DNA of 13,890 bases from Propionibacteriaceae bacterium (GTDB lineage Bacteria > Actinomycetota > Actinomycetes > Propionibacteriales > Propionibacteriaceae), in NCBI GenBank assembly GCA_031268065.1, contig JAIRXX010000338.1, forward strand, positions 1 through 13,890. Direction: 5' to 3'. Below the pieces are notes generated by a model. It worked only from the letters and a program-made list of their open reading frames with translations, made no database searches and had not been told where the DNA came from. Shown here piece by piece: positions 3,399 through 13,890 of this stretch. Within the stretch, counting starts at the first letter, position 1. Each line of letters opens with the position of its first letter. Position numbers and translations under genes: made by a program.

Positions 3399-4264
3399 CC
3401 CTTCACCGCGCCCTGGGCTTGACCGGCGATCAGCTGCTTCTGCGCGAAGAGGAACATCAAGACGATAGGCGTGATGGAAATCACCGAAGCCAGCGCCACC
3501 TCTGGGGCGTGGATCGGCAGGGTGGACTGGTTGCCGCCGGAAACCGCCGAAGTGGAGGCCACCAGCAATTGCAAGCCGGTCTGCAAAGTGGCCAACTTGT
3601 CGTCGGTCAGCATGATGAAGGGCAGGAAGAAGGCGTTCCAGGTGCCGACCACGCCGAAGAAGGTGATCATCACGATCACTGGGCGGGCCAGCGGCAGGAA
3701 GACGCGGCGGAAGATGCCGAATTCGCCACAACCGTCGATGCGGGCCGCCTCGATGATTTCGCTGGGCACTGAAGCCTTGGCGTAGAGGTAGGTCATGTAG
3801 ACGCCGAAGGGGTAGAACGTCAACGGCAGGATCACCGCCCAAGGCGTGTTGATCAGGTGGAAGGTGCTCATCTCCAAATACATCGGCAAGATCAACGCCG
3901 CCTGTGGGACCAGCATCAGCAGCAGGGTCAGGAAGAGCAGCGTCCCCCGGAACCGGAAGCGGAATTTAGCCATCGCGTAGCCAGCGGGCAGCGATGCCGC
4001 CAGGGCGACACCCACCGTCACCGCCGTGTACCAGATGGAATTCAGCGCCCAGCGCCAGATTATGCCGTCGTTGTAGGTGACCAGGTTGTTCCAGGTGTCG
4101 CCGAATTGGGCAAGCGATCCGAAAGACATCGGATTTTCGTAGCTGAGCGCGTAGTTTGACTTGGTTGGGGCCAGCAGCAACCAGAGCACCGGCAGCCCAA
4201 AGAAGACGATGGTAGCGACGAAGAAGAGATTGCGGCCGATTTTCCCGCCTGCCAGCCGTAACAT
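3395..4264 (-). CDS. Carbohydrate ABC transporter permease, MalG-like (CUT1)
   Basis: This 289-residue protein is the second inner-membrane permease of a CUT1-type sugar importer. It starts MLRLAGGKIGRNLFFVATIV, with the first membrane helix within about the first 30 residues and roughly six hydrophobic segments in all. The cytoplasmic EAA loop that docks the ATPase is clear: EIIEAARIDGCGEFGIFRR followed by VFLPLARP. The length is usual for MalG/AraQ-type permeases. The ATG at 4264 shares one base with the upstream permease stop (TGATG). The tail overlaps the serine hydrolase start by four bases (GTGA), so the genes are translationally coupled. The longer reading frame to 4552 is an upstream overlap with the first permease and is not used. 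Confidence 0.95.
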   Translation of the reverse strand: MLRLAGGKIGRNLFFVATIVFFGLPVLWLLLAPTKSNYALSYENPMSFGSLAQFGDTWNNLVTYNDGIIWRWALNSIWYTAVTVGVALAASLPAGYAMAKFRFRFRGTLLFLTLLLMLVPQAALILPMYLEMSTFHLINTPWAVILPLTFYPFGVYMTYLYAKASVPSEIIEAARIDGCGEFGIFRRVFLPLARPVIVMITFFGVVGTWNAFFLPFIMLTDDKLATLQTGLQLLVASTSAVSGGNQSTLPIHAPEVALASVISITPIVLMFLFAQKQLIAGQAQGAVKG

Positions 4265-5181
4265 CAGTTGTCCTCCAACGAGTAGAAATTGGTCCGCTTG
4301 ATGATGATGACCGCCAGGCCGATGCAGACCGCCAGCAGCAGGATTGACAGCGCCGAGGCGCGGCCATAGTTGAGTTGCCCACCGGTCGCGTAGACATAGG
4401 CCAATTGGTTCACGCTCCAGGTCTGGGAAATGTGCGCAGGCGCACCGGCCCGGATCACCGTCGGCTCCACAAAGACTTGGAAGCCGTTGGCCAGCGAGAC
4501 GATGAGCACGAAGGCGACATAGGAGCGGATCATCGGCAATTTCACATGCCACACTGTCTGCCAGGCGGTTGCCCCGTCGAGTTGCGCGGATTCGATCAGA
4601 TCGCTCGGAATGCCGGTGAGCGCCCCGAAAAGGATCACCACCCAGCCACCGGCCCCGGCAGAGATTCCCATGATGGCCAAGATCAGCGGCATCGTCTCAT
4701 CGGAGACGAAGGTGGCATCTGTGCCGGAAAGGGCGCGCAACGCCGGACCGATTGGGCTGACCGTCGGGGAGAACATGAAGAGCCAGAGCAGCGCCGCCGC
4801 CGAGCCGGTGATGGCTCCGGGCACATAGGTGAGAAAACGGGTGAGGGCGGCGAATTTGCTGCGCTTGGCATCCATAGCCAACGCCAGCGCGAAGACCAGG
4901 ATCAGCAGGGCTGGCAGCCAAGTCAGCATGTAGAGCGCGACATTCGCCGCAGAGGTCCCCAACCGGTAATCACCTAGGACGTCGGCAAAATTCTGCCAGA
5001 GCGAAAACTCCGGATCGCCCATGATCTTGGTGACGATGAAGGCCTGGTACAAGCCGTATGCCGCTGGGGTGATGCCGAAAAGCAACAGCAGCACGACATA
5101 GGGCGCGGTGAAGAGCAGGCCCTTGCGGGCGAGTCTGCGCTGGGGCAGGCTCGTCCGCAAGGCTGGGGACTTTCCGGACAC
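4264..5181 (-). CDS. Carbohydrate ABC transporter permease, MalF-like (CUT1)
   Basis: This 305-residue protein is the first membrane permease of the importer. After a basic N-terminus (PQRRLARKG) comes the first membrane helix LLFTAPYVVLLLLFG, and about six membrane segments follow. The EAA loop is DLIESAQLDGATAWQTVWHV then KLPMI, in the usual place about 100 residues from the C-terminus. The start is a GTG at 5181, one base after the binding-protein stop codon. The Shine-Dalgarno sequence is weak, so translation is probably coupled to the preceding gene. It pairs with the MalG-like permease to form the channel. No ATPase gene accompanies the operon. Confidence 0.95.
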   Translation of the reverse strand: MSGKSPALRTSLPQRRLARKGLLFTAPYVVLLLLFGITPAAYGLYQAFIVTKIMGDPEFSLWQNFADVLGDYRLGTSAANVALYMLTWLPALLILVFALALAMDAKRSKFAALTRFLTYVPGAITGSAAALLWLFMFSPTVSPIGPALRALSGTDATFVSDETMPLILAIMGISAGAGGWVVILFGALTGIPSDLIESAQLDGATAWQTVWHVKLPMIRSYVAFVLIVSLANGFQVFVEPTVIRAGAPAHISQTWSVNQLAYVYATGGQLNYGRASALSILLLAVCIGLAVIIIKRTNFYSLEDN

Positions 5182-5182
5182 G

Positions 5183-6499
5183 TCAGGACACCACGGTGTA
5201 GCCGGTGGCCTCGGCAGCCGCTTTGGCCTGCTCTCCGAATTGGGCCAGCGAATCTGCGGAGGCGTTGCCCTTGATTACGGTGGCGTTGAATGACTCCAGC
5301 AATTCGGTCTGATAGCGGACGTAGCCATCTGCCGGATTCACCTTGTTGGCGGCATCTAGCAGCACTTCGCTCGGGTTTTCCGCGTACCAGGTGTCAGCGG
5401 CTTTATCGGCCAGCCAGGCTTGCGCGCCGGGAATGTAGGCCGGATATGTGGCCTGGGCTTTGGCGATGTCGATGTCTGTGGTGATGCCCACCAGGAAATC
5501 GACGGTGGCCTGCTTGTTCTTGGTGCTGGCGCTGGCCACCCAGATGCCGCCGCCTACTGCGCCAGACCAATTCGTGCTCTCGCCGTCCCAGGTCGGCATC
5601 GGGGCGGCGGCGTACTTGCCGGAGCCTTCAGCCTCTTTGTTGGCGTCTTTAAACATCGGTTTGAAGGCGAAGTCAGCCACCCAGGAGGCGCCGATCATGC
5701 CGACAACTTTGCCGTCGGCCACCTGGGCAGTGTAATTCTTGTCGAATAGGTCGAGATTGGCCAGCGCGCCGTTCTCAAGCAACGGCGCCATGACGTCAAT
5801 CACCCGGGAGCATTTGGGGTCGGCCAGGTTTATCCGCACCTGAACCGGATCCACCACATCGATGAAGGGGCAACCCGAAGAACCGAGCCAAGCGTCTGTG
5901 CCGTAGCGTCCGTTGACCGTGCCCAGGTTGTAGCCAGCGTGCTCTTGGGCAAGCTTTACGCCGAGTTCTTTGAATTCGCTGAAAGTGGCCGGGGCGCTGT
6001 AGCCCCACTCGTCAAAGAGCGCCTTGTTGTACCAAAACACGGTCTGCCCGGTGTCATTTCCCAGGCAGTAGATTTGGTCGCCATAGCTGCAGCGCTTGGC
6101 GGATGGGAAGTCGTCTAAGACCGACTGCTCCACCAGGCCATTCAGGGCTAGCGGGTAATTGATCGGATTGGCCGACAGCGAGGCTATTTCGTCCGGACTG
6201 CCGATGAAGACGATATCCGGCACGCCTTCACCAGCTTTTTGGGCCAGCGCGATTTTGGCGGTGTTGGTGCCCTGTGTCGCATCGACCAATTCGACTTTGA
6301 CTTCAATGCCCGGATGGCTGCTGGTGAATTTCTCCTCAATGAATTTCTGGACGACTGGCTGGCGCTCGGCGTCCACCCAAACCAGCAATGGGGCGGTCGG
6401 GTCGTCGGACGCGGCAGGCTGGGCGGAGCCGCCTGAACAGCCAGCCAGCACTGTGGCAGCCAGCATCGCCGCTGCCCCGATAGCGATTTGCTTGCGCAA
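5183..6499 (-). CDS. Extracellular sugar-binding lipoprotein of ABC transporter (CUT1)
   Basis: This 438-residue protein captures the sugar outside the membrane and delivers it to the two permeases. The N-terminus (MRKQIAIGAAAMLAA, then TVLAGC) is a lipoprotein signal with lipobox LAGC and lipidated Cys21, followed by a Gly/Ser/Ala-rich linker. The fold is that of family 1 solute-binding proteins, with LLVWVDAERQPVVQKFIEEKF at the start of the mature domain, GVPDIVFIGSPDEIA, TVFWYNKALFDEWGY and GGGIWVASASTKNKQATVDFL. Three internal cysteine-containing stretches (KRCSYGDQIYC, SSGCPF, PKCSR) may form disulfides. The start chosen is the TTG at 6499 because AGGAGG lies 4 bases upstream and it yields a proper signal peptide. 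An ATG at 6517 would add six residues but lacks a ribosome binding site. Confidence 0.94.
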   Translation of the reverse strand: MRKQIAIGAAAMLAATVLAGCSGGSAQPAASDDPTAPLLVWVDAERQPVVQKFIEEKFTSSHPGIEVKVELVDATQGTNTAKIALAQKAGEGVPDIVFIGSPDEIASLSANPINYPLALNGLVEQSVLDDFPSAKRCSYGDQIYCLGNDTGQTVFWYNKALFDEWGYSAPATFSEFKELGVKLAQEHAGYNLGTVNGRYGTDAWLGSSGCPFIDVVDPVQVRINLADPKCSRVIDVMAPLLENGALANLDLFDKNYTAQVADGKVVGMIGASWVADFAFKPMFKDANKEAEGSGKYAAAPMPTWDGESTNWSGAVGGGIWVASASTKNKQATVDFLVGITTDIDIAKAQATYPAYIPGAQAWLADKAADTWYAENPSEVLLDAANKVNPADGYVRYQTELLESFNATVIKGNASADSLAQFGEQAKAAAEATGYTVVS

Positions 6500-6503
6500 T
6501 TTT

Positions 6504-6509
6504 CCTCCT
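6504..6509 (-). promoter_or_regulatory. Ribosome binding site deciding a TTG start
   Basis: A perfect AGGAGG on the minus strand lies 4 bases before the TTG at 6499-6497. It lies downstream of the competing ATG at 6517-6515, which it therefore cannot serve. This fixes the binding-protein start at TTG. Confidence 0.75.
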
Positions 6510-6522
6510 AGGTACATCAAGC

Positions 6523-6600
6523 CGGGCGGCCTCGCCCGCTGAGACGATTCCAGACCTGAATCTGTTGCAACACCGCGCCGATAACCCGGCATCCGCCGGG
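6523..6600 (-). other. Two hairpins in the long 5' leader of the transporter operon
   Basis: The predicted transcript starts near 6660, giving a leader of about 160 bases before the TTG start. It can form two 6-bp GC hairpins with 4-base loops: CCCGGC/GCCGGG (6600-6595 with 6590-6585) and CGGGCG/CGCCCG (6538-6533 with 6528-6523). The second ends 13 bases before the AGGAGG. Neither is followed by a T tract, so they are not obvious terminators. They may stabilise the mRNA or tune translation. No known riboswitch was recognised. Confidence 0.4.
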
Positions 6601-6650
6601 ATTGCCTACTGGGTGAGACGGCGCTTTTGGGTTAACCGATCCCGCATCTA

Positions 6651-6662
6651 GTAATCGTTTAC
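6651..6662 (-). promoter_or_regulatory. LacI-family operator O1 of the transporter operon
   Basis: The site reads GTAATCGTTTAC on plus and GTAAACGATTAC on minus, palindromic at all but one symmetric pair and centred on CG as in LacI-family operators (AAnCGnTT). It begins 4 bases downstream of the predicted -10 box, covering the transcription start, which is a repression position. It differs at one position from the core of the perfect palindrome at 7954-7969. Confidence 0.75.
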
Positions 6663-6666
6663 CGAG

Positions 6667-6695
6667 ACCGTAGCCTAGAAAAAGGCGGGCGTCAA
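6667..6695 (-). promoter_or_regulatory. Predicted sigma-70-type promoter of the transporter operon
   Basis: On the minus strand TTGACG (6695-6690) is separated by 17 bases from TACGGT (6672-6667). The -35 box is strong. The -10 box is weak (matches only at T-A and the final T), but the spacing is exact and the operator follows directly. The expected transcript starts near 6660. Confidence 0.6.
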
Positions 6696-6705
6696 GAGCA
6701 TGAGG

Positions 6706-6717
6706 GTAATCGATTGC
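6706..6717. promoter_or_regulatory. Second LacI-type operator O2
   Basis: GTAATCGATTGC contains the palindrome AATCGATT with central CG and shares GTAATCG with O1. It lies 55 bases from O1 and 10 bases upstream of the -35 box of the transporter promoter, towards the regulator gene. It may allow cooperative binding or regulator autoregulation. Confidence 0.55.
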
Positions 6718-6854
6718 TGACAGTTCGGTCTGCCGCCTGAACCAGCGCTTAAATCGTGCTGGCCGCTTCGCGCGTAGCAGCCCCACGGCGCCCATCGGCG
6801 GCGAAGAACGTGAAACTCGGCGCAAATGTCAAAGCTTCGGCGACTGCCGCGCTC

Positions 6855-6860
6855 TAGACT
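6855..6860 (+). promoter_or_regulatory. Possible -10 box of the LacI-type regulator gene
   Basis: TAGACT (four of six matches to TATAAT) lies 30 bases before the GTG start. No convincing -35 box is found at the right spacing. The rest of the interval 6718-6890 shows nothing else recognisable. Confidence 0.25.
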
Positions 6861-6890
6861 GCCACTTGGAGTCGAATGAAGGAGCAGCCA

Positions 6891-7898
6891 GTGCCCCGCA
6901 AACAGAATGCGGTCAGCATCATGGATGTCGCCAGCCGCGCCCAGGTATCGACGGCGACGGTCTCGCGCGTCTTGAACGGCAAGGGAAATGTGGACCCGGC
7001 GTTGGCGGCGGCGGTGCGCCAGGCGGTGCGGGAGACCGGCTATACCCCCAATATCACCGGACGGGCGCTGCGCCGCCAGGTATCGGACGTCTGGGCAGCC
7101 ATCGTGCCTGACATCGAGAATCCCTTCTTCACCGCTGTGGTGGCGGCATTGGAGTCGGTGGCGATTTCCAATGGCTACTCGCTGATGCTTTTCAACACCA
7201 ACGAGAGGCTCGACCAGGAGCGCCGTTACGTCGAGGCCGTCGTTTCGCAGCGCATGGCCGGGGTGGTGTTGGCGGTGAGTTCCGAGCGCGACTCGGATAT
7301 CAGCCCGATCACTTCCGCCGGTATCCCCTTGGTGCTCATCGACCGGCGGCTGCGCGGCTATTTAGGCGATGCGGTATTCGTCGACAATTTGACTGCCGGA
7401 CGCCAAGCGGCCAAGCATCTGATCGCCCAGGGCTTTACCGACATCGCCTGCATCGCCGGGCCGGAGGACGTCTCCACCACCGAAGACCGGCTGAGCGGCC
7501 TGCGTGAGGAATTGGAAGCGGCGGGCATTGGGCTGCGCCCGGAATGGGTGCGGCGCAGCAACCTGCGCTTCGAGGGCGGTGAGATCGCCCTGCGCTCACT
7601 GGTGAGCAACGATCCGGTGCCCAAAGCCGTCTATGTGACCAATGGCCCCATCACCGCAGGTGCTTTCCGAGCCGCCCAGCAGTTGGAAATCGAAATCCCC
7701 GCGACTCTCGGCATTGTCGGAACAGACGACGACCAGTGGACCAGAATGGTGGCGCCAGCAGTCACCGTAATCGCGCAGCCAACGGCCCGGATCGGCAAAT
7801 TGGCCGGTGAGTGCCTCGTCGCCAGGTCGAACGACCCGATTGGCGCCGGACAGCAGATCACCCTCGCCCCGTCGCTGTTGGCCAGGGATTCTAGCTGA
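6891..7898 (+). CDS. LacI-family transcriptional regulator
   Basis: This 335-residue protein is a sugar-responsive DNA-binding repressor, acting as a dimer or tetramer in the cytoplasm. The N-terminal helix-turn-helix (residues 9-30, SIMDVASRAQVSTATVSRVL) and hinge (ETGYTPN, ALRRQVSD) are typical of the family. A periplasmic-binding-protein-like sugar domain follows, with VWAAIVPDIENPFFTAVV, MAGVVLAVS, PLVLIDRR, VFVDNLTAGRQAAKHLI and the C-terminal GTDDDQWTRMVAPAVTVIAQP. The start chosen is the GTG at 6891, because GAAGGAG lies 6 bases upstream. The ATG at 6876 lies before that site and lacks one of its own. It sits between the transporter operon and the isomerase-kinase operon, both of which carry matching operators. 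The effector is probably the transported sugar or its phosphate. Confidence 0.95.
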   Translation: MPRKQNAVSIMDVASRAQVSTATVSRVLNGKGNVDPALAAAVRQAVRETGYTPNITGRALRRQVSDVWAAIVPDIENPFFTAVVAALESVAISNGYSLMLFNTNERLDQERRYVEAVVSQRMAGVVLAVSSERDSDISPITSAGIPLVLIDRRLRGYLGDAVFVDNLTAGRQAAKHLIAQGFTDIACIAGPEDVSTTEDRLSGLREELEAAGIGLRPEWVRRSNLRFEGGEIALRSLVSNDPVPKAVYVTNGPITAGAFRAAQQLEIEIPATLGIVGTDDDQWTRMVAPAVTVIAQPTARIGKLAGECLVARSNDPIGAGQQITLAPSLLARDSS

Positions 7899-7923
7899 AC
7901 GCGACCACTGCCCGTTTTCCACC

Positions 7924-7952
7924 TTGACAGCCCGGTGAGGCTGGCCTATCTT
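7924..7952 (+). promoter_or_regulatory. Predicted promoter of the isomerase-kinase operon
   Basis: TTGACA (7924-7929, perfect) is separated by 17 bases from TATCTT (7947-7952, four of six matches). It lies 26 bases after the regulator stop and is followed at once by the palindromic operator. Transcription should start near 7959, inside the operator. Confidence 0.82.
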
Positions 7953-7953
7953 T

Positions 7954-7969
7954 GAGTAAACGTTTACTC
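7954..7969. promoter_or_regulatory. LacI-family operator (perfect 16-bp palindrome)
   Basis: GAGTAAACGTTTACTC is identical to its reverse complement and has the central CG and AAnCGnTT core of LacI-family operators. Beginning one base after the -10 box, it covers the transcription start, so bound repressor should block the promoter. Its core GTAAACGTTTAC recurs with single changes at 6651-6662. Confidence 0.88.
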
Positions 7970-8004
7970 TTACGGCTGGCGATCAGCGAAAGGCAGTGGT
8001 CACG

Positions 8005-8625
8005 ATGACGGACGGCGCAAGCATCGAAAATGGAGTGACAACTGCCCTGTCAGCCTTGGACATCGAGGCTTCCGCGCTGAGTGTCGCCAAGGCCAGGGTG
8101 AGCGGGCAAATGGCCGCCGCGCTGGAATTGCTCCACCGGGCGGCAGGTCGGGTAATCGTTTCCGGGATCGGGAAGTCCGGCCACATCGGGGCGAAGATCG
8201 CCGCCTCGCTGGCCTCCACCGGCACTCCGGCCTTCTTCATCCACTCCACCGAAGCGCTGCACGGGGATTCCGGCATGGTCACCGGCGATGATGCGGCAAT
8301 CCTGATTTCCAACTCCGGGGAGACCGCCGAAGTGCTGGCTTTCGGCCAGATGCTCGCGGCTTGGGGCGTGCCGATCATCGCCCTGACCGGTGGGGAGGGA
8401 TCGACGCTGGCCAAGCTGGCGAAAGTCACGCTGGACGTTTCGGTGGCAGCCGAGGCAGACCCGCTCGGGCTGGCTCCCACCGCTTCCACCACCTGCACCC
8501 TTGCGGTGGGCGACGCGCTGGCAGCCGGGTTGATGGCGATTAACGGCTTCACTCCCGGCGATTTCCACCAGCGCCATCCCGGAGGCTCGCTCGGCAAACT
8601 GCTCGACGATGGAAGGGCGGCTTGA
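8005..8625 (+). CDS. SIS-domain sugar-phosphate isomerase, KdsD/KpsF (arabinose-5-phosphate isomerase) type
   Basis: This 206-residue single-domain SIS protein resembles the isomerase half of KdsD/KpsF/GutQ, which interconvert D-arabinose 5-phosphate and D-ribulose 5-phosphate. The usual C-terminal CBS pair is missing. Motifs are SGIGKSGHIGAKIAASLAST, HSTEALHGDSGMV, SNSGETAE, AEADPLGLAPTASTT and FHQRHPGGSLGKLL. Lys57, His86, Glu109, Glu150 and His191 correspond to E. coli KdsD Lys59, His88, Glu111, Glu152 and His193 (recalled literature numbering) at a constant offset of two, so the active site appears intact. The start chosen is the ATG at 8005; a GTG at 7996 would add three residues, but the GAAAGG site is then only 2 bases away. 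Actinobacteria of this kind are not expected to make KDO, so a catabolic role with the following kinase is more likely. Confidence 0.88.
   Translation: MTDGASIENGVTTALSALDIEASALSVAKARVSGQMAAALELLHRAAGRVIVSGIGKSGHIGAKIAASLASTGTPAFFIHSTEALHGDSGMVTGDDAAILISNSGETAEVLAFGQMLAAWGVPIIALTGGEGSTLAKLAKVTLDVSVAAEADPLGLAPTASTTCTLAVGDALAAGLMAINGFTPGDFHQRHPGGSLGKLLDDGRAA
8152..8163. promoter_or_regulatory. Operator-like 12-mer inside the isomerase gene
   Basis: GTAATCGTTTCC matches O1 (GTAATCGTTTAC) at 11 of 12 positions. It lies inside coding sequence about 196 bases downstream of the main operator, a position at which some LacI-family systems have auxiliary operators. It encodes conserved residues (VIVSG), so coincidence is a serious alternative. 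Confidence 0.3.
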
Positions 8626-8695
8626 TGCGCCGGTGTCGCCCGCCGTTGGATTCGCCAACACTACGAGTTGGGCAGCGCTGCGAATGGAGAACGGC

Positions 8696-9619
8696 ATGAC
8701 GGCTGGAAAAGTATGCGTGATCGGCTCGTTCATGATGGACCTGGTGGCAGAGGCTCCCCGGCGCCCCCAACCGGGGGAAACGCTGCGCGGCACCGCTTTC
8801 CGCTGCACACCAGGGGGAAAGGGGTACAACCAGGCCATCGCCGCAGCGCGCGCTGGAGCGCAGACCGCTCTGCTGGGATCGCTGGGCGACGACGATTTCG
8901 CCCGGAGTTTCCAAGCCACCTTCGCTGCAGAGGGCATCGACGCCTCCGGGGTGCGCCTAGCCGCAGACCAGGGCACCGGAGTCGGCCTGCCGGTGGTCGA
9001 GCCGGGCGGCCAGAATTCCATCATCATCATTCCGCGCGCCAATCTCACCTGGACACTGGACCAGGTGCAGGCCAACGCCTCAGCCATCGAGGCGGCAGAT
9101 GTGGTGCTGGCGCAATTCGAAGTGCCGCTGGAATGCGTCACCGAGGCGGCGCGGATAGCGAATGACGCCGGGACGTTGGTAGTCGTCAACCCGGCGCCGT
9201 TTGCGCCCGTGCCCAAGCAGTTATTCGCCCACAGCGACCTGATGGTGCTCAACGAGACCGAATTGCGCGATCTGTGCCAGGCGGCGGACGGCTCGCTGGC
9301 CGCGCTGTACGCCCTCGCCGCTGGCGCCGCGTGCGAAAAATGCTTGGACTTAGTGGTTACCCTCGGCCCCCGAGGTGCCCTCATCGCCTGGAAAGACGGC
9401 TCATTGACCGAAGTTCCAGCCCGCAAAGCCGATGCGGTGGACACCGTTGGCGCTGGCGATGTCTTCTGCGGCAATCTCGGCACCGCGCTGGCTCGCGGCG
9501 AGAGCCTAATCAGCGCCGTGGAATTGGCCAACGCCGCCGCGTCGATTTCGGTCACCCGTCCCGGTGGCGGCTGTTCCGCCCCCACGCTGGACGAGACGCT
9601 GGCACTGCTGGCCGAGTGA
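8696..9619 (+). CDS. PfkB-family sugar kinase, ribokinase-like
   Basis: This 307-residue cytoplasmic protein has the length and layout of ribokinase, which phosphorylates a sugar with ATP. The N-terminal sugar-binding motif is PGGKGYNQAIAAARAGA (GGKGxNQ at 40-46). Glu142 matches RbsK Glu143, and the C-terminal nucleotide-site signature DTVGAGDVFCGNLG carries the catalytic base Asp255, the same number as in E. coli RbsK. Asp15 is kept, but the ribose-contacting Asn14 of RbsK (motif GSINAD) is Met here (GSFMMD), suggesting a different sugar. The ATG at 8696 is preceded by GGAGA at 5 bases. An in-frame ATG at 8609 would overlap the isomerase and add 29 unlike residues. It follows the isomerase by 70 bases, probably in one transcript. 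Confidence 0.92.
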   Translation: MTAGKVCVIGSFMMDLVAEAPRRPQPGETLRGTAFRCTPGGKGYNQAIAAARAGAQTALLGSLGDDDFARSFQATFAAEGIDASGVRLAADQGTGVGLPVVEPGGQNSIIIIPRANLTWTLDQVQANASAIEAADVVLAQFEVPLECVTEAARIANDAGTLVVVNPAPFAPVPKQLFAHSDLMVLNETELRDLCQAADGSLAALYALAAGAACEKCLDLVVTLGPRGALIAWKDGSLTEVPARKADAVDTVGAGDVFCGNLGTALARGESLISAVELANAAASISVTRPGGGCSAPTLDETLALLAE

Positions 9620-9658
9620 GCGGCAGCCGGGTCAACGCCCGCGGGCAGCGTGGACCCG

Positions 9659-9678
9659 AAAACGCCCTTCGGCTGGGC
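9659..9678 (-). terminator. Weak candidate terminator after malQ
   Basis: On the minus strand, just past the malQ stop, GCCC-AGCCGAA-GGGC is followed by GTTTT. The stem is only 4 bp. Nearby, 9628-9658 can form a larger nested hairpin (CGGGTC with GACCCG, enclosing the palindrome GCCCGCGGGC) between the two convergent genes, but without T tract on the plus side. Confidence 0.35.
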
Positions 9679-9682
9679 CGCG

Positions 9683-11839
9683 TCAAGCCAGCGTCACTTC
9701 GGGTTCCCAGACGGGGACCGGGGCGGCGTTCATGACTTCGGCCAGCCTGCGGGCGCGTTCGTCGGCGAACACTTCCTCGATCATCATCGGCGCCCCATCT
9801 GGATGCGACAGCGGGATTCTCCAATTCGGATATTCCTTGTCGGTGCCCGGCTGGTTCTGGGTAAGGTGGTCCCCCACCGCGTCAACCAGCGCGGCGCACA
9901 AGACCCTGGCCGGAGTGGCGCTCAGATAGCGGTGCAAGGCCAGGACGACCTCCTCAACGTCGGTCTCACTGTGGAGGAGGTAGCCCTCGGCTTTCAACAT
10001 GTCCAGATAGTGCTGCTGCTGTGCCTCTGCGGAGGCCAACGCGGATTCCAGCGACTCGGTGAGCAGGCCGAGCCGGTGTTGCAGGTAAATATGCGATTTG
10101 GCCAGATAGCCAGCGGTCGGCGGCAGATCGTGGGTGGTGACCGAAGCCAGGCAGTATTCCCGCCATTGCTCCGGCTTCAGCGGATTGCCCTGGTGATCGT
10201 GCTCGAACCAGGCGATAGACGTCCCCAGCACTCCCCGGTCGCGCAGATAGCCGCGCACCCACGGCTCGACCACGCCGAGGTCTTCCCCGACCACCAGCGC
10301 TCCCGCCCGGTAAGCCTCCAGCACCAGAATGCCGATGGCCGCCTGATAGTCGTAACGCACGTAGCTGCCCTGGGCCGGGGTCATCCCGTTCGGTATCCAC
10401 CACAGCCTAAACAGCCCCATGATGTGATCCATCCGAATCCCGCCGGAATTGCGCAGCAGCCCGGCGACCATCGTCCGGAAGGGCGCGTAACACAATTCCT
10501 CCAGCCGGTCAGGCCGCCAGGCCAGCTGCGTCCAATCTTGGCCCAGTTGGTTGAAATGGTCTGGCGGCGCCCCCACCGACACCCCGTTGGCGAAGAGGTC
10601 GCCGTAAGTCCAAGCCTCAGAACTTTCGATCCCCACACCCACGGCCAAGTCGTTCATCACCCCGATCAGCATCCCGGCATCGCGGGCAGAGGCTTGCGCT
10701 TCGCAGAGCTGCAACTCGGCCACCCACTGCAACCACACGTAAAAGACCACCCTTTCCCGGTTGGCCGCATCAAATTCGGCCACTGCGGCTGAATCTGGTT
10801 CGCGCAGGTCCGGCGGCCATTCGCGCCAGTCATCGCCGTAGTTCTCGCTGAGCGCACACCAAGTGGCGAATTGGGTCAGCGCCGGACCCTCCCGCTCGAT
10901 GAACGCCTCCAACGCCATCTGCCGAGCTGGACGCCGACCGTGCTGGTAGATCACCCACAGTGCCGCCCGTTTGGCGTTCCACACCTCGTCGCGGAAAATG
11001 AGCCGTTTCTCCGGGATTTCATCGGCCAGCGAAGCCTTGAGGTTGAAGACCCGCGCCCGTTCGTCATCGCTCAGCTCGGAATACTCCGCCACGCTTTCTG
11101 GCCGGATGTACAGCGGATTGATGAAACGCCGGCTGGCTGGCAGATAGGGGGAACATTCGACGGGGGCCACCACCTGCGCCGCGTGCAGCGGGTTCACCAG
11201 CATGAAGTCGGCGCCTTGCACCTTCCCCGACCAGGTGGCCAAGTCGGCCATGTCGACCAGATCGCCGAACTCCCAGGACCGCTGGGAACGGGTGGAGTAG
11301 AGCTGCACCGCGTAACCCCAGGCCCGCTTCGCCCCCAGCCGCTCGGGGAAACCCAGGAAATGCGGGCTGACCACCAGCATCGACTCTTCCTGGCCAGCCG
11401 CCGTGGTGGCTTGCAGCGCGTGGTAGCCCAACGGCAGGTCGCCGGGCAATTCAAATGCCGCCTCCCCGATCAGCTTGCCGCTGACCCAGCGCGGATCGAC
11501 AACATGGAAGACCTGCCGCACATCGAGCCAGTCACCGTCTTCGGTGCGGATCGCCAGCCGGACCCACTCGCCGTCCGGAACATGCACCAACACTTGTTGG
11601 CTGGTTCCCTGCTCCATCACGACACAGGGCGGGATCGTCTTGGTCCACGGCTTATTCCGGTGCTCTTCCAGCGCGGCGGCGGCTTTCGCCGCGTCGGCGG
11701 CGTCCACGTCCATAGCGGCTAGGATGGCGACCACCGTCGCTTCAGAAATCTCAATCTGCTGCCCGCGCCAGTCGTAAAATTCGGTGGCGATCCCGAATTC
11801 AGTAGCCAAATCTTTGAGGGCGCTATCCGACCAAGCCAT
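9683..11839 (-). CDS. malQ: 4-alpha-glucanotransferase (amylomaltase)
   Basis: This 718-residue GH77 enzyme transfers maltosyl and longer alpha-1,4-glucan segments between malto-oligosaccharides in cytoplasmic maltodextrin and glycogen metabolism. The catalytic residues are visible: nucleophile Asp471 in IRMDHIMG, acid/base Glu519 in VVGEDLGV and Asp571 in TTHDLPP. Their spacings (48 and 52) equal those of E. coli MalQ Asp448, Glu496 and Asp548. Residues about 1-160 are an N-terminal extension found in the long actinobacterial and enterobacterial MalQ type. The GH77 substrate loop SPYLPASRRFINPLYI is present. The ATG at 11839 is preceded by AAGGTGG at 8 bases; an upstream in-frame start at 11863 would overlap this site. 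It is convergent with the kinase gene and divergent from the DUF3039 gene, and probably unrelated to the sugar locus. Confidence 0.97.
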   Translation of the reverse strand: MAWSDSALKDLATEFGIATEFYDWRGQQIEISEATVVAILAAMDVDAADAAKAAAALEEHRNKPWTKTIPPCVVMEQGTSQQVLVHVPDGEWVRLAIRTEDGDWLDVRQVFHVVDPRWVSGKLIGEAAFELPGDLPLGYHALQATTAAGQEESMLVVSPHFLGFPERLGAKRAWGYAVQLYSTRSQRSWEFGDLVDMADLATWSGKVQGADFMLVNPLHAAQVVAPVECSPYLPASRRFINPLYIRPESVAEYSELSDDERARVFNLKASLADEIPEKRLIFRDEVWNAKRAALWVIYQHGRRPARQMALEAFIEREGPALTQFATWCALSENYGDDWREWPPDLREPDSAAVAEFDAANRERVVFYVWLQWVAELQLCEAQASARDAGMLIGVMNDLAVGVGIESSEAWTYGDLFANGVSVGAPPDHFNQLGQDWTQLAWRPDRLEELCYAPFRTMVAGLLRNSGGIRMDHIMGLFRLWWIPNGMTPAQGSYVRYDYQAAIGILVLEAYRAGALVVGEDLGVVEPWVRGYLRDRGVLGTSIAWFEHDHQGNPLKPEQWREYCLASVTTHDLPPTAGYLAKSHIYLQHRLGLLTESLESALASAEAQQQHYLDMLKAEGYLLHSETDVEEVVLALHRYLSATPARVLCAALVDAVGDHLTQNQPGTDKEYPNWRIPLSHPDGAPMMIEEVFADERARRLAEVMNAAPVPVWEPEVTLA

Positions 11840-12010: not shown

Positions 12011-12280
12011 GTGAACCAGACTGAAACCCAACCCCGGCTGAGCACGCTCGTCCAAGAGCGGACCAAGCCCCAGCCCGCCGATCCGGAGGACCACGAACGC
12101 CTGTCGCACTACGTGCAAAAGGCAAAACTCACCGAGGCGATGGTGATGGGCACACCGGTGATCGCCCTGTGCGGCAAAGTCTGGGTTCCGTCTCGCAATC
12201 CGGACCGCTATCCGGTCTGCCCTGACTGCAAGCGGATCTGGGAAAAGCTGCGCCCCGGCAAAGACGACGCCGACAAGTGA
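12011..12280 (+). CDS. DUF3039 domain-containing protein
   Basis: This 89-residue protein of unknown function matches the DUF3039 family known from actinobacteria. After a polar, Pro/Glu-rich N-terminal half comes a conserved core PVIALCGKVWVPSRNPDRY, PVCPDCKRIWE. The three cysteines (C-x18-C-x2-C) look like a possible metal site, perhaps with a histidine supplied from elsewhere. The GTG at 12011 is chosen because AAAAGGAG lies 6 bases upstream. The stop overlaps the next start as GTGA, so the two proteins are translationally coupled. No function is proposed. Confidence 0.88.
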   Translation: MNQTETQPRLSTLVQERTKPQPADPEDHERLSHYVQKAKLTEAMVMGTPVIALCGKVWVPSRNPDRYPVCPDCKRIWEKLRPGKDDADK

Positions 12281-12783
12281 CGGCACCGGTGAAGACACTG
12301 ATTGTCCTGCGCCACGCCAAGTCGTCGTGGCAGACCAGCGACGCCGACCACGAGCGCCCGCTCTCGGATCGCGGCCTGCAAGACGCCGCCGTAGCCGGGA
12401 AGATTCTGTCCGAATACCATATCGACTACCTGCTCTCGTCCACTGCCACCAGGGCAAAGCAGACCTGGGAACAGGCTCAAACGGGCGGGGCATCCGCCGA
12501 CGTGGCCGTCTTCTCCAAGGCGATTTACCATGCCTGGCCGGATGAGATCATCTCCGAATTGCGCGAATTGGACGCCAGCGTGCGCGTTGCGCTGCTCATC
12601 GGCCACCAGCCAACCCTTGGAGACCTGGTAGCCTCGCTAACGTCTCCCAACCAATCCCCCCAGCACCTTGGCGGCTTCCCCACCTGCGCCCTAGCGGTGC
12701 TCAACCACCCCGGCGAATGGCAGACGCTGGCAGAAGGCTCAGCCACCCTAGCCAGATTTGAAATACCCAGGGCAGATCAGTAG
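12277..12783 (+). CDS. SixA-like histidine phosphatase family protein
   Basis: This 168-residue protein belongs to the histidine phosphatase (phosphoglycerate mutase-like) superfamily, nearest in motif to SixA, which removes phosphate from phosphohistidine proteins. The N-terminal motif is LRHAKSSW (Arg12, phospho-acceptor His13), with Arg59 in SSTATRAKQT and the second catalytic His110 in LLIGHQPTLGDL. The substrate is unknown; other family members act on small phosphates. The start is a GTG at 12277 overlapping the DUF3039 stop by four bases. The last codons read GAT CAG TAG, and the stop codon lies inside the ahcY-derived repeat copy at 12777-12814. Confidence 0.9.
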   Translation: MTAPVKTLIVLRHAKSSWQTSDADHERPLSDRGLQDAAVAGKILSEYHIDYLLSSTATRAKQTWEQAQTGGASADVAVFSKAIYHAWPDEIISELRELDASVRVALLIGHQPTLGDLVASLTSPNQSPQHLGGFPTCALAVLNHPGEWQTLAEGSATLARFEIPRADQ

Positions 12784-12814
12784 CGGTAGCCCTCGGCTTA
12801 TCCGGCCCGTCCAC
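12777..12814 (+). repeat. Degenerate copy of the ahcY 3' end (left repeat)
   Basis: These 38 bases match 13572-13610 in direct orientation with two mismatches and one missing base. They begin TCAGTAGCGGTAGCC and end CGGCCCGTCCAC in both copies. Read on the minus strand they resemble the last 12 codons and stop of ahcY, but the missing base shifts the frame after VDGPDKP. The copy also contains the SixA-like stop codon. Confidence 0.85.
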
Positions 12815-12839
12815 CCGTTCAATTTGTAAAGACGCCGAA

Positions 12840-12869
12840 GTCGTATATGTACGACATGCGACGTATACT
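12840..12869 (+). promoter_or_regulatory. Promoter and operator of the toxin-antitoxin pair
   Basis: TATACT (12864-12869, five of six matches to TATAAT) ends 6 bases before the antitoxin ATG, so the message is probably leaderless. There is no Shine-Dalgarno sequence. Just upstream are the inverted repeat GTCGTA-TATG-TACGAC (12840-12855) and a near-direct repeat, GTCGTATA (12840) and GACGTATA (12860), 20 bases apart on one face of the helix. These are likely sites for autorepression. Confidence 0.6.
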
Positions 12870-12875
12870 CGGGGC

Positions 12876-13157
12876 ATGACTGAAACGCAGATCGGGATCA
12901 GGGAGTTGCAGCGTGATACCTCACGCATTGTGCGCTCGGTTGAGGAGAACGGCGACACTTACCGCATTTCCATCCAAGGACACCCGACCAATGTCGTTAT
13001 CGGCAGCTACGCACCGCCGAAGAAGTGCGGCGCCACCGTTGGCGAGGTGCGTGACTCGGCCTTGTACCGAAGCATTCCCGCTGAGTTGGCGACCCAATGG
13101 CTGGCTGAGATCGAAGCCGGGCGCGATGCTGACGACTCTCCCGGAGACCAGTGGTGA
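12876..13157 (+). CDS. Type II antitoxin, Phd/YefM-like
   Basis: This 93-residue protein is the likely antitoxin of a type II pair. Its N-terminal half (QIGIRELQRDTSRIVRSVEE, then GDTYRISIQGHPTNVVIG) has the Phd/YefM DNA-binding fold pattern: strand, helix, helix, then an Arg/Ile strand. The acidic C-terminal part (WLAEIEAGRDADDSPGDQW) would wrap the toxin. The ATG at 12876 has no ribosome binding site but sits 6 bases after a -10 box. The stop overlaps the toxin GTG start by four bases, the usual arrangement for balanced expression. It should neutralise the PIN toxin and repress its own promoter. Confidence 0.87.
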   Translation: MTETQIGIRELQRDTSRIVRSVEENGDTYRISIQGHPTNVVIGSYAPPKKCGATVGEVRDSALYRSIPAELATQWLAEIEAGRDADDSPGDQW

Positions 13158-13552
13158 CGCGGATACTGCTGGACACCAATCTGCTCATCTGCGAGCCAGA
13201 CTTCGGGTTGCTTCCAGGTGGCACGCATGAATTGTTCACCGCTGCGCTGTGTTACGCCGAATTGCAGGAGGGCGAGTTCTCCCGAAACCCAGCCATTCGC
13301 GCCCGCGCCCAAATCCAATACCTCCGCGCTGTGGAGACCTACGGGGAAGGGTTGCCTTTCGACCACCGGGCGGCGGCGCTTTACCGCGTTGTCTGCCGGA
13401 CGTCCCATGACAAAGGACGCCAGATAGGCCGCTCTAGGCGCGTTGACCTGATGGTGGCTGCCGTCGCGTTGGCGCACGACTGCGCTTTGGCCACCCGCAA
13501 TCTCGCTGATTTTGCCTGGTTAGACGACATTTTGCCAGTGGTCGCACTGTGA
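13154..13552 (+). CDS. PIN-domain ribonuclease toxin (VapC-like)
   Basis: This 132-residue protein is a predicted Mg-dependent endoribonuclease toxin that cuts RNA (often tRNA or rRNA in this family) when freed from its antitoxin. The acidic PIN residues are present: Asp7 in ILLDTNLL, Glu36 in YAELQEGEF, Asp98 in RRVDLMVAAVA, and Asp119 within ATRNLADF. The length is normal for VapC. The GTG at 13154 is chosen because GGAGA lies 6 bases upstream and it overlaps the antitoxin stop as GTGA; a GTG at 13151 is possible. The gene ends 19 bases before the intact ahcY 3' end, convergent with it. Confidence 0.9.
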   Translation: MTRILLDTNLLICEPDFGLLPGGTHELFTAALCYAELQEGEFSRNPAIRARAQIQYLRAVETYGEGLPFDHRAAALYRVVCRTSHDKGRQIGRSRRVDLMVAAVALAHDCALATRNLADFAWLDDILPVVAL

Positions 13553-13571
13553 CCCGAAGTTATAGCGCCTT

Positions 13572-13610
13572 TCAGTAGCGGTAGCCCGCTGGCTTATACG
13601 GCCCGTCCAC
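13572..13610 (+). repeat. ahcY 3' end, right repeat copy
   Basis: This is the intact copy of the 38/39-bp direct repeat. On the minus strand it encodes the last 12 residues of AhcY ([12 protein letters not shown]) and the TGA stop. The two copies enclose about 760 bases that hold only the toxin-antitoxin module. Confidence 0.85.
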
Positions 13611-13890
13611 GCTAACGCCGATATAGTCGGCTTGGGCTTGGGTGAGCCGGGTCAGTTTGATCCCGAGCGCGTCCAGATGCAGCCTGGCGACCATTTCGTC
13701 CAACAGCTTGGGCAGGGTGTGGACGCCGAGCGGATAGGCCCCAGGCCGGGTGAACAATTCGATTTGGGCGAGCACCTGGTTGCTGAACGAATTGCTCATC
13801 ACGAAACTGGGGTGCCCGGTGGCATTGCCCAGATTCATCAGCCGACCCTCGCTGAGGACGATGATCGAATTGCCGCTGGGCAGCTTCCAC
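13572..13890 (-). CDS. ahcY: Adenosylhomocysteinase (S-adenosyl-L-homocysteine hydrolase), C-terminal part
   Basis: This is the last 105 codons of a minus-strand gene that begins beyond the right edge. The enzyme reversibly hydrolyses S-adenosylhomocysteine to adenosine and homocysteine in the methyl cycle, using bound NAD. The visible part, [20 protein letters not shown], then [37 protein letters not shown] and the terminal [11 protein letters not shown], is the conserved C-terminus that closes the NAD site of the neighbouring subunit (Lys and Tyr of KPxxYRY). The frame is open to the window edge with no internal start required. Its 3' end is convergent with the toxin gene and is partly duplicated at 12777-12814. 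Confidence 0.96.

Follow-up and report, generated by a model that had tools for sequence, protein, structure and literature searches.

Integrative elements inserted at the 3' ends of tRNA or protein-coding genes, together with their integrase-less remnants, rebuild the gene end and leave the displaced end behind as a repeat; such restoration of the gene end is typical of this class. Insertions of another kind are described in the accessible text of PMC3874152, where some restriction-modification (RM) systems enter with long target duplications whose variable length is on the order of 100 bp (with reference to Nobusato 2000 and Furuta 2010), and the portion of PMC2654758 available to us ascribes to RM systems an apparent mobility in common with toxin-antitoxin (TA) systems (citing Nobusato). 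According to the accessible part of PMC2884548, direct repeats flank 10-18% of small variable segments, 66-94% of these repeats being shorter than 30 bp, and in the sections of PMC5361080 at hand homology-facilitated illegitimate recombination is put forward for the T6SS effector-immunity modules of V. cholerae. The entry of bare chromosomal TA modules has mostly been inferred from patchy distribution, and in the literature searched we met no description of a TA module within a gene-end duplication, subscription papers being mostly outside its scope. At the locus presented here such an entry event is caught together with its scar, a relative with one copy of the repeat, and a relative age.

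The window, i.e., the whole stretch of 13,890 nucleotides that was analysed, is the entire contig C73 (JAIRXX010000338.1) of a 2.23-Mb draft genome, about 76% complete, of a Propionibacteriaceae bacterium (GCA_031268065.1). The gene order at its right end is the following:

12011-12280: DUF3039 gene
12277..12783, + strand: SixA-like histidine phosphatase (PF00300, E 2.7e-9; TIGR00249, E 2.1e-14, below its cut-off), with its stop TAG inside the left repeat
12777..12814, - strand: left repeat copy, an ahcY 3'-end relic that lacks one base and is hence frameshifted
12815..13571, no strand: inserted unit between the repeat copies, 757 bp
12840..12855, no strand: perfect palindrome GTCGTA-TATG-TACGAC, 20 bp before the antitoxin start
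12876..13157, + strand: antitoxin, weakly Phd/YefM-like, 93 aa (PF02604; VapB46 in the PDB)
13151..13552, + strand: toxin, VapC-like PIN protein, 133 aa (NF047863; PF01850; invariant acidic positions; structure model)
13572..13610, - strand: right repeat copy, the functional ahcY 3' end
13572..13889, - strand: 3' part of ahcY, adenosylhomocysteinase (PF05221, E 5.8e-34; TIGR00936, E 1.4e-35), the gene running off the contig end

An earlier note on this DNA had described a direct repeat of the ahcY 3' end on both sides of a TA module, and its coordinates and alignment hold, since 12777-12814 and 13572-13610 agree in 36 of 39 columns, with two mismatches and one gap. The pair has a local score of 61, whereas 100 shuffles gave at most 23 and 252 random 1-kb pairs drawn from the window at most 37. 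A 16-base core of the repeat, searched with up to one mismatch, does not occur elsewhere in the 2.23-Mb, ~76% complete draft genome. The right copy forms the 3' end of ahcY in frame, and the left copy is out of frame by one absent base; reading frames and the PF05221 match agree with the previous description of the former as the functional end and of the latter as a frameshifted remnant. The TAG of TCAGTAG in the left copy ends the SixA-like ORF (12277-12783), also as proposed. This long direct repeat of the target flanks on both sides an insert whose measured length (757 bp, 12815-13571) corresponds to the unit of about 760 bases reported before, and whose G+C is 0.597 vs 0.632 for the window. 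The claimed lack of an integrase was borne out by a Pfam scan of the 15 window ORFs, in which no integrase, transposase or reverse transcriptase was named. A DNA transposon or insertion sequence was rejected, given the repeat of 39 bp, the lack of a transposase among the 15 ORFs and of terminal inverted repeats of at least 14 nt, none of which were reported at the insert ends.

The antitoxin and toxin genes overlap by 7 bases and both frames are open. The toxin matches the NCBIfam VapC model NF047863 (E 7.3e-8, far below the cut-off) and the PIN family PF01850 (E 0.0011, below the cut-off), and its residues D7, E36, D98 and D119, which we take to be the PIN active-site positions, are invariant in 22 aligned sequences. 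Its predicted structure is a confident alpha/beta model (mean pLDDT 96), and a protein search at E 1e-3 retrieved 28 relatives besides the window protein. The antitoxin matches PF02604 (Phd/YefM) with E 0.0013 and 18.9 bits, vs a cut-off of 29.8, and its PDB match to VapB46 is weak (E 0.052). Six of the ten named records matched are Propionibacteriaceae MAGs. Judging from these families, the module would be a two-gene type II TA system, composed of a weakly Phd/YefM-like antitoxin and a VapC-like PIN toxin, which may persist through its own addiction. The palindrome is a candidate operator, and a simple scan gave no sigma-70-like promoter. The module resembles VapBC type II systems with a Phd/YefM-type antitoxin in its PIN-like toxin with conserved acidic positions, in the antitoxin gene that lies upstream of, and overlaps, the toxin gene, and in the palindrome upstream of both; unlike them, toxin and antitoxin both fall below the Pfam/NCBIfam cut-offs.

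A SixA match is present in 57 of 60 relatives, paralogues included. We fetched SixA loci from 23 congeners (L003-L025), in 18 of which the ahcY end lies on the same locus, being absent from the other five. In all 18, sixA and ahcY are convergent, with gaps of 4 to 1287 bp: ten gaps are shorter than 200 bp, seven hold a VanY-type ORF (two gap ORFs were scanned with Pfam, the remaining ones being similar ORFs) and one holds a LacI-type ORF. The possibility of a cargo hot spot between the two genes was dropped, seven of the eight large gaps holding a similar (VanY-type) ORF. The window TA is absent from 18/18 congener loci (tblastn), none of which has a second copy of the ahcY end (relic scores 12 to 23; L012, with 110 N, scores one point above its own shuffles).

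The closest relative by the AhcY C-terminus, G029 (89%), has no TA beside ahcY and carries the junction in a single copy, in which the SixA-like end reads FEIPRGWTQ-stop and its TAG lies within the ahcY-end TCAGTAG. Most of sixA is gone in this genome (about 15 codons are left), and an AlbA_2-type ORF (PF04326) then runs to the contig end. The empty site with overlapping stops and one repeat copy, which the earlier note had asked relatives to provide, is thus present in G029, though with most of its sixA gone. None of the 18 congeners has two repeat copies without the TA, and a TA always present beside an unrelated left flank was not seen either. With no TA or second copy in 18/18 congeners and one copy in G029, the proposal that the TA unit entered at the sixA-ahcY junction and that neither gene was lost stands in outline. 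That the two genes originally overlapped at their stops agrees with the G029 junction, but contact between them is not universal, as 8/18 congeners have an ORF in between.

The two window copies share four derived bases relative to G029 (columns 14, 15, 24 and 30), and have their own changes besides, one in the right copy and two in the left copy, including the frameshift (with the gap placed as in the repeat alignment). Since the four derived bases are common to both copies, the duplication is younger than the split from G029. The 318-bp ahcY piece is identical to G029 at 275/318 positions, with no clear step, and the contig ends inside the gene. Two other junctions were noted in passing: at L075 (G029:C37, 3704-4096) the sixA remnant by ahcY possibly reflects a mirror-image event at the sixA end, and at L035 (G014:C63) the DUF3039 gene directly abuts the ahcY end, no sixA being found between them.

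We then define a scar as a gene end, a TA and a relic of that gene end. At VapC-like loci, we looked for direct repeats shared by the two flanks of the module and sorted the matches by eye. Among the matches listed, scars occur in 5/116 VapC-like loci, window included, and, again among the matches listed, in 2/55 ParE/RelE and Phd/YefM loci, one of these at a tRNA. Besides the window, they are:

L129 (G197:C39): end of an AAA_14/DUF4143 ATPase gene, 51 bp at 88%
L104 (JAISBQ010000354.1, Bifidobacteriaceae MAG): end of a different DUF4143 ATPase gene, 120 nt at 94%
L198 (G017:C45): end of a LysE gene, 43 bp, with TA and gene on the same strand
L143 (G197:C109): end of a GNAT/DUF4081 gene, 44 residues matched by protein search
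L353 (G100:C185): fpg-end relic at 1296-1367, in frame, followed by YefM, a YoeB-like toxin and intact fpg
L337 (G007:C31, 1360-2128): tRNA-Met, YefM and YoeB, followed by a 53-nt relic of the tRNA 3' part

Where relics were measured at TA modules, they are short (about 40-130 nt), and the repeats differ from gene to gene. Relative to the stop codon, the repeat boundary lies at 0 bp in the window and at ~+7 (L104), ~+19 (L198), ~-6 (L143), ~-23 (L129) and ~-6 (L353). The L143 and L353 relics are about 30% different from the intact end and yet in frame, like diverged orthologues; in L143, 30 of 93 nt differ (11, 4 and 15 by codon position). The L143 repeat, with a score of 40, is below the screening thresholds and was identified by protein search, while L104, whose toxin is broken after ~48 aa and which has a third copy of the repeat (81-85% similar) nearby, scored 26 among the 116 loci, the end of the broken toxin having been extrapolated past the repeat, and was found by the other tests. 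At L337, the last 28 nt of the relic are identical to the tRNA-Met 3' part and no integrase was named in the stretch read; this tRNA case looks like an integrase site. The GNAT-proS pair provides a clear empty site, for in 9 of the 12 genomes that have the two genes on one locus they are separated by 54-130 bp; G197 has TA and relic there, and G202 and G200 have other cargo, with relic scores that do not exceed 30, a trivial value due to 15 overlapping bases. For L198 no empty site was found (29 genomes searched, 22 with a match, 20 loci read).

Several other repeats were set aside. L319, L152 and L135 have CRISPR-like or REP-like repeats, as judged by eye, and were not counted as scars; L152 (G205:C43:196200-202700) and L319 are CRISPR-like arrays near TA genes. 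The tight 44-bp repeat of L205, which a lenient count would include, is a tail common to two neighbouring TA-like modules (G198:C41, 2034-3530, tandem PIN-type modules, each ending in the 44-bp tail, which runs past the stop codon). The 58-bp repeat of L142 spans its TA, but it is neither tight nor at a recognised gene end, and L211 and L203 were set aside in the same way. L328 was rejected for involving two different tRNA genes, and L349 for a repeat between two similar ORFs.

Raw repeats with a score of at least 45 were present in 7/116 TA loci (among the matches listed) vs 9/318 control windows, and the raw repeat rates of TA loci are not far from those of controls. Tight repeats with a score of at least 45 gave 5/116 TA loci (among the matches listed) vs 1/318 controls, the REP-like L135 and the shared tail of L205 being among the five, and at a score of at least 40 the raw counts were 5/55 TA loci (among the matches listed) vs 15/400 control windows. 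A gene-end test on 119 TA-centred loci kept, among the matches listed, eleven entries, six of which, in four loci (window, L104, L129 and L198), bracket the TA with a gene end. Applied to 40 stretches of other DNA, 800 kb in total, the same test retained nine entries from seven loci and left out 11 random-set matches; apart from L300, the retained entries proved on inspection to be paralogues, shadow frames or internal repeats of large proteins. The comparison is only suggestive, the TA set being centred on TA genes. L300 (G205:C43:60001-80000) contains at 4120-9941 a diversity-generating retroelement, with an RVT_1 ORF and a bAvd-like ORF, and a 52-bp repeat pair (5629-5680/6351-6402), the latter copy lying close to the 3' end of a gene (1201 aa) that has NACHT matches.

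The fpg gene extends the picture to other cargo. The fpg-gtrA pair likewise has a clear empty site: in 24 of 30 fetched loci the two genes overlap, four have an insert (G100, 923 bp; G069, 1317 bp; G087, 832 bp; G074, 225 bp) and two have no visible gtrA. Relics of the fpg end were sought in 39 genomes and judged by DNA scores and an fpg search. In G069 an in-frame fpg relic of 67 nt lies beyond a membrane-type ORF and a GNAT-like ORF (named by eye), in G074 the relic lies within the 225 bp, with no listed gene, and in G087 there is cargo at fpg-gtrA without a relic (DNA score 23). In G071 (L403, G071:C1:1564000-1578500) the relic is ~10.5 kb from fpg, beyond a restriction-type island with an EcoRI-type methylase, a GmrSD/HNH protein, a HATPase, AAA_13 proteins and a pPIWI-associated nuclease; the match to fpg itself is split in two at this locus. 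In G079 (L404, G079:C6:101500-111500) a second fpg copy, 57% similar, is followed by MerR, MerB, a pyridine-nucleotide reductase and an fpg relic. No integrase was named among the nine G071-island ORFs or the six G079-stretch ORFs scanned; a helix-turn-helix match of one G071 ORF to ISL3 transposases is weak and below the cut-off. The gene-end scar is therefore not TA-specific, as GNAT-type cargo and a restriction-type island are likewise bordered by fpg relics, and a mode of mobility proper to TA modules, which we had considered, lost ground once non-TA cargo was met in the same fpg scar.

Our leading explanation, tentatively held, is that the TA was captured at the overlapping sixA/ahcY stops by an illegitimate insertion that duplicated the gene end. 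The module would have entered where the two stops overlapped, and the final 39 bp of ahcY would as a result be present on either side of the TA, the left copy keeping the sixA stop and being frameshifted later, the right copy keeping ahcY whole. The joining step may have been a target-duplicating insertion via a staggered break that was filled in or, alternatively, template switching by a replication fork, which on its return resumed ~39 bp behind the point it had left. An insertion disrupting one of the genes would not be retained, and survivors between overlapping genes would have to carry such a repeat; whatever the route, the scar thus reflects in part the survival of only those insertions that leave both overlapping genes intact. 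Illegitimate recombination is favoured because like scars at other genes (ATPases, LysE, GNAT and fpg) have different repeats, of ~40-130 nt, and it also explains the differing genes and the lack of enzymes. The derived bases common to both copies are, from the alignment, as expected of a local duplication. Against target duplication, the repeat ends at the ahcY stop, and within ~25 bp of the stop in the five other protein-gene TA cases, where a random duplication would often run further, which fits better an incoming gene end; in addition, the L143 and L353 relics resemble diverged orthologues, L337 is att-like, L198 yielded no empty site, and neither a donor molecule nor a source copy was found.

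The boundary near the stop and the diverged relics are what would be expected had a strain already bearing ahcY-TA served as donor, recombining in ahcY by homology and being joined illegitimately 39 bp inside the resident 3' end, so that the resident end became the relic. We regard this import as rather unlikely: it accounts for the end of similarity close to the stop codon in the protein-gene cases and for the resemblance of the L143 and L353 relics to diverged orthologues, and it has a published parallel in the T6SS effector-immunity modules of V. cholerae, but it requires a donor that already had the arrangement, the derived bases common to both window copies would make that donor a very close strain, the relics at TA modules are short (about 40-130 nt), and homology-facilitated illegitimate recombination is described as rare in the accessible part of PMC5361080. 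A relic of site-specific integration, with the ahcY 3' end as the target of an integrase, the gene made whole again by attP, and either a later reduction of the element to the TA or mobilisation of the cassette in trans, is decidedly unlikely. Restoration of the gene end, the L337 tRNA-Met scar and the presence of several kinds of cargo at fpg relics fit it, whereas no integrase is found among the scanned ORFs of the window, of the G071 island (nine) and of the G079 stretch (six), or in the large sixA-ahcY gaps read, and genes and repeats vary from case to case. A viral search with an ahcY-end pattern gave six stretches, three with an AhcY gene end, and no integrase was seen by eye among the larger ORFs beside that gene end on the three viral contigs. 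The fpg relics moved our estimate for illegitimate insertion from an even chance to somewhat below it, raised import from a donor from unlikely to rather unlikely, and left the integrase site where it was.

The locus might also be a variable segment of the ordinary kind, flanked by direct repeats and unrelated to TA, as any islet that survives between overlapping genes would show a rebuilt end. This reading, which we hold to be very improbable, is in line with the frequency of flanking repeats around small variable segments (10-18%, in the accessible part of PMC2884548), with the raw repeat counts (7/116 TA loci, among the matches listed, vs 9/318 controls) and with the fpg relics at non-TA cargo in G069, in G071 and at the mercury genes of G079 and within the 225 bp of G074, where no gene is listed; it is weakened by the tight repeats (5/116 TA loci, among the matches listed, vs 1/318 controls, though L135 is REP-like and L205 a shared tail), and it describes a class and does not itself name the joining step. 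The chance that the copies are a template/variable pair of a diversity-generating retroelement, or coincidental, is practically negligible. L300, in control DNA, did give the same kind of match, but a retroelement was rejected here, as there is no reverse transcriptase among the 15 window ORFs scanned and the differences between copies include a frameshift and are not confined to adenines; coincidence is opposed by the score of 61, far from the shuffle maximum of 23.

A broader proposal would be a general, recombinase-free entry of islets that rebuild the gene end, with small modules (often TA, also restriction-type and metabolic cargo) inserted at the 3' ends of conserved genes (ahcY, fpg, GNAT, LysE-type, DUF4143 ATPases, tRNA-Met), especially overlapping genes, the gene being kept whole and the relic left on the far side. 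We consider such generality unlikely. Should it apply, like scars at other genes would be a signature for scanning and rough dating, by which TA and restriction genes could be compared under one insertion mode; otherwise, the window remains a clear example of two overlapping genes that received a module between them, neither of them being broken.

Compared with integrative elements at gene 3' ends, the window likewise has a rebuilt gene end, with the displaced end kept as a repeat, and it differs in that no integrase was found, in its size of 0.7-0.8 kb and in the differing genes from case to case. As in the T6SS effector-immunity arrays, to the extent covered by the accessible sections of PMC5361080, a module enters beside a conserved gene and the old 3' end is shifted aside; there, however, the effector is displaced, whereas the host gene of the window is kept whole and no donor is seen. 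With RM insertion with long target duplication, as far as the accessible sources describe it, the window shares a small selfish module, a long direct repeat of variable length, an empty site and the lack of a recombinase. It differs in that its cargo is a VapC-type TA and not a restriction-modification gene, so that it may work like such an insertion without being one, and in that its repeat sits at a gene 3' end and rebuilds it, for which a donor-supplied end is a candidate. The insertion in the window follows a known pattern in variant form, its cargo being a TA.
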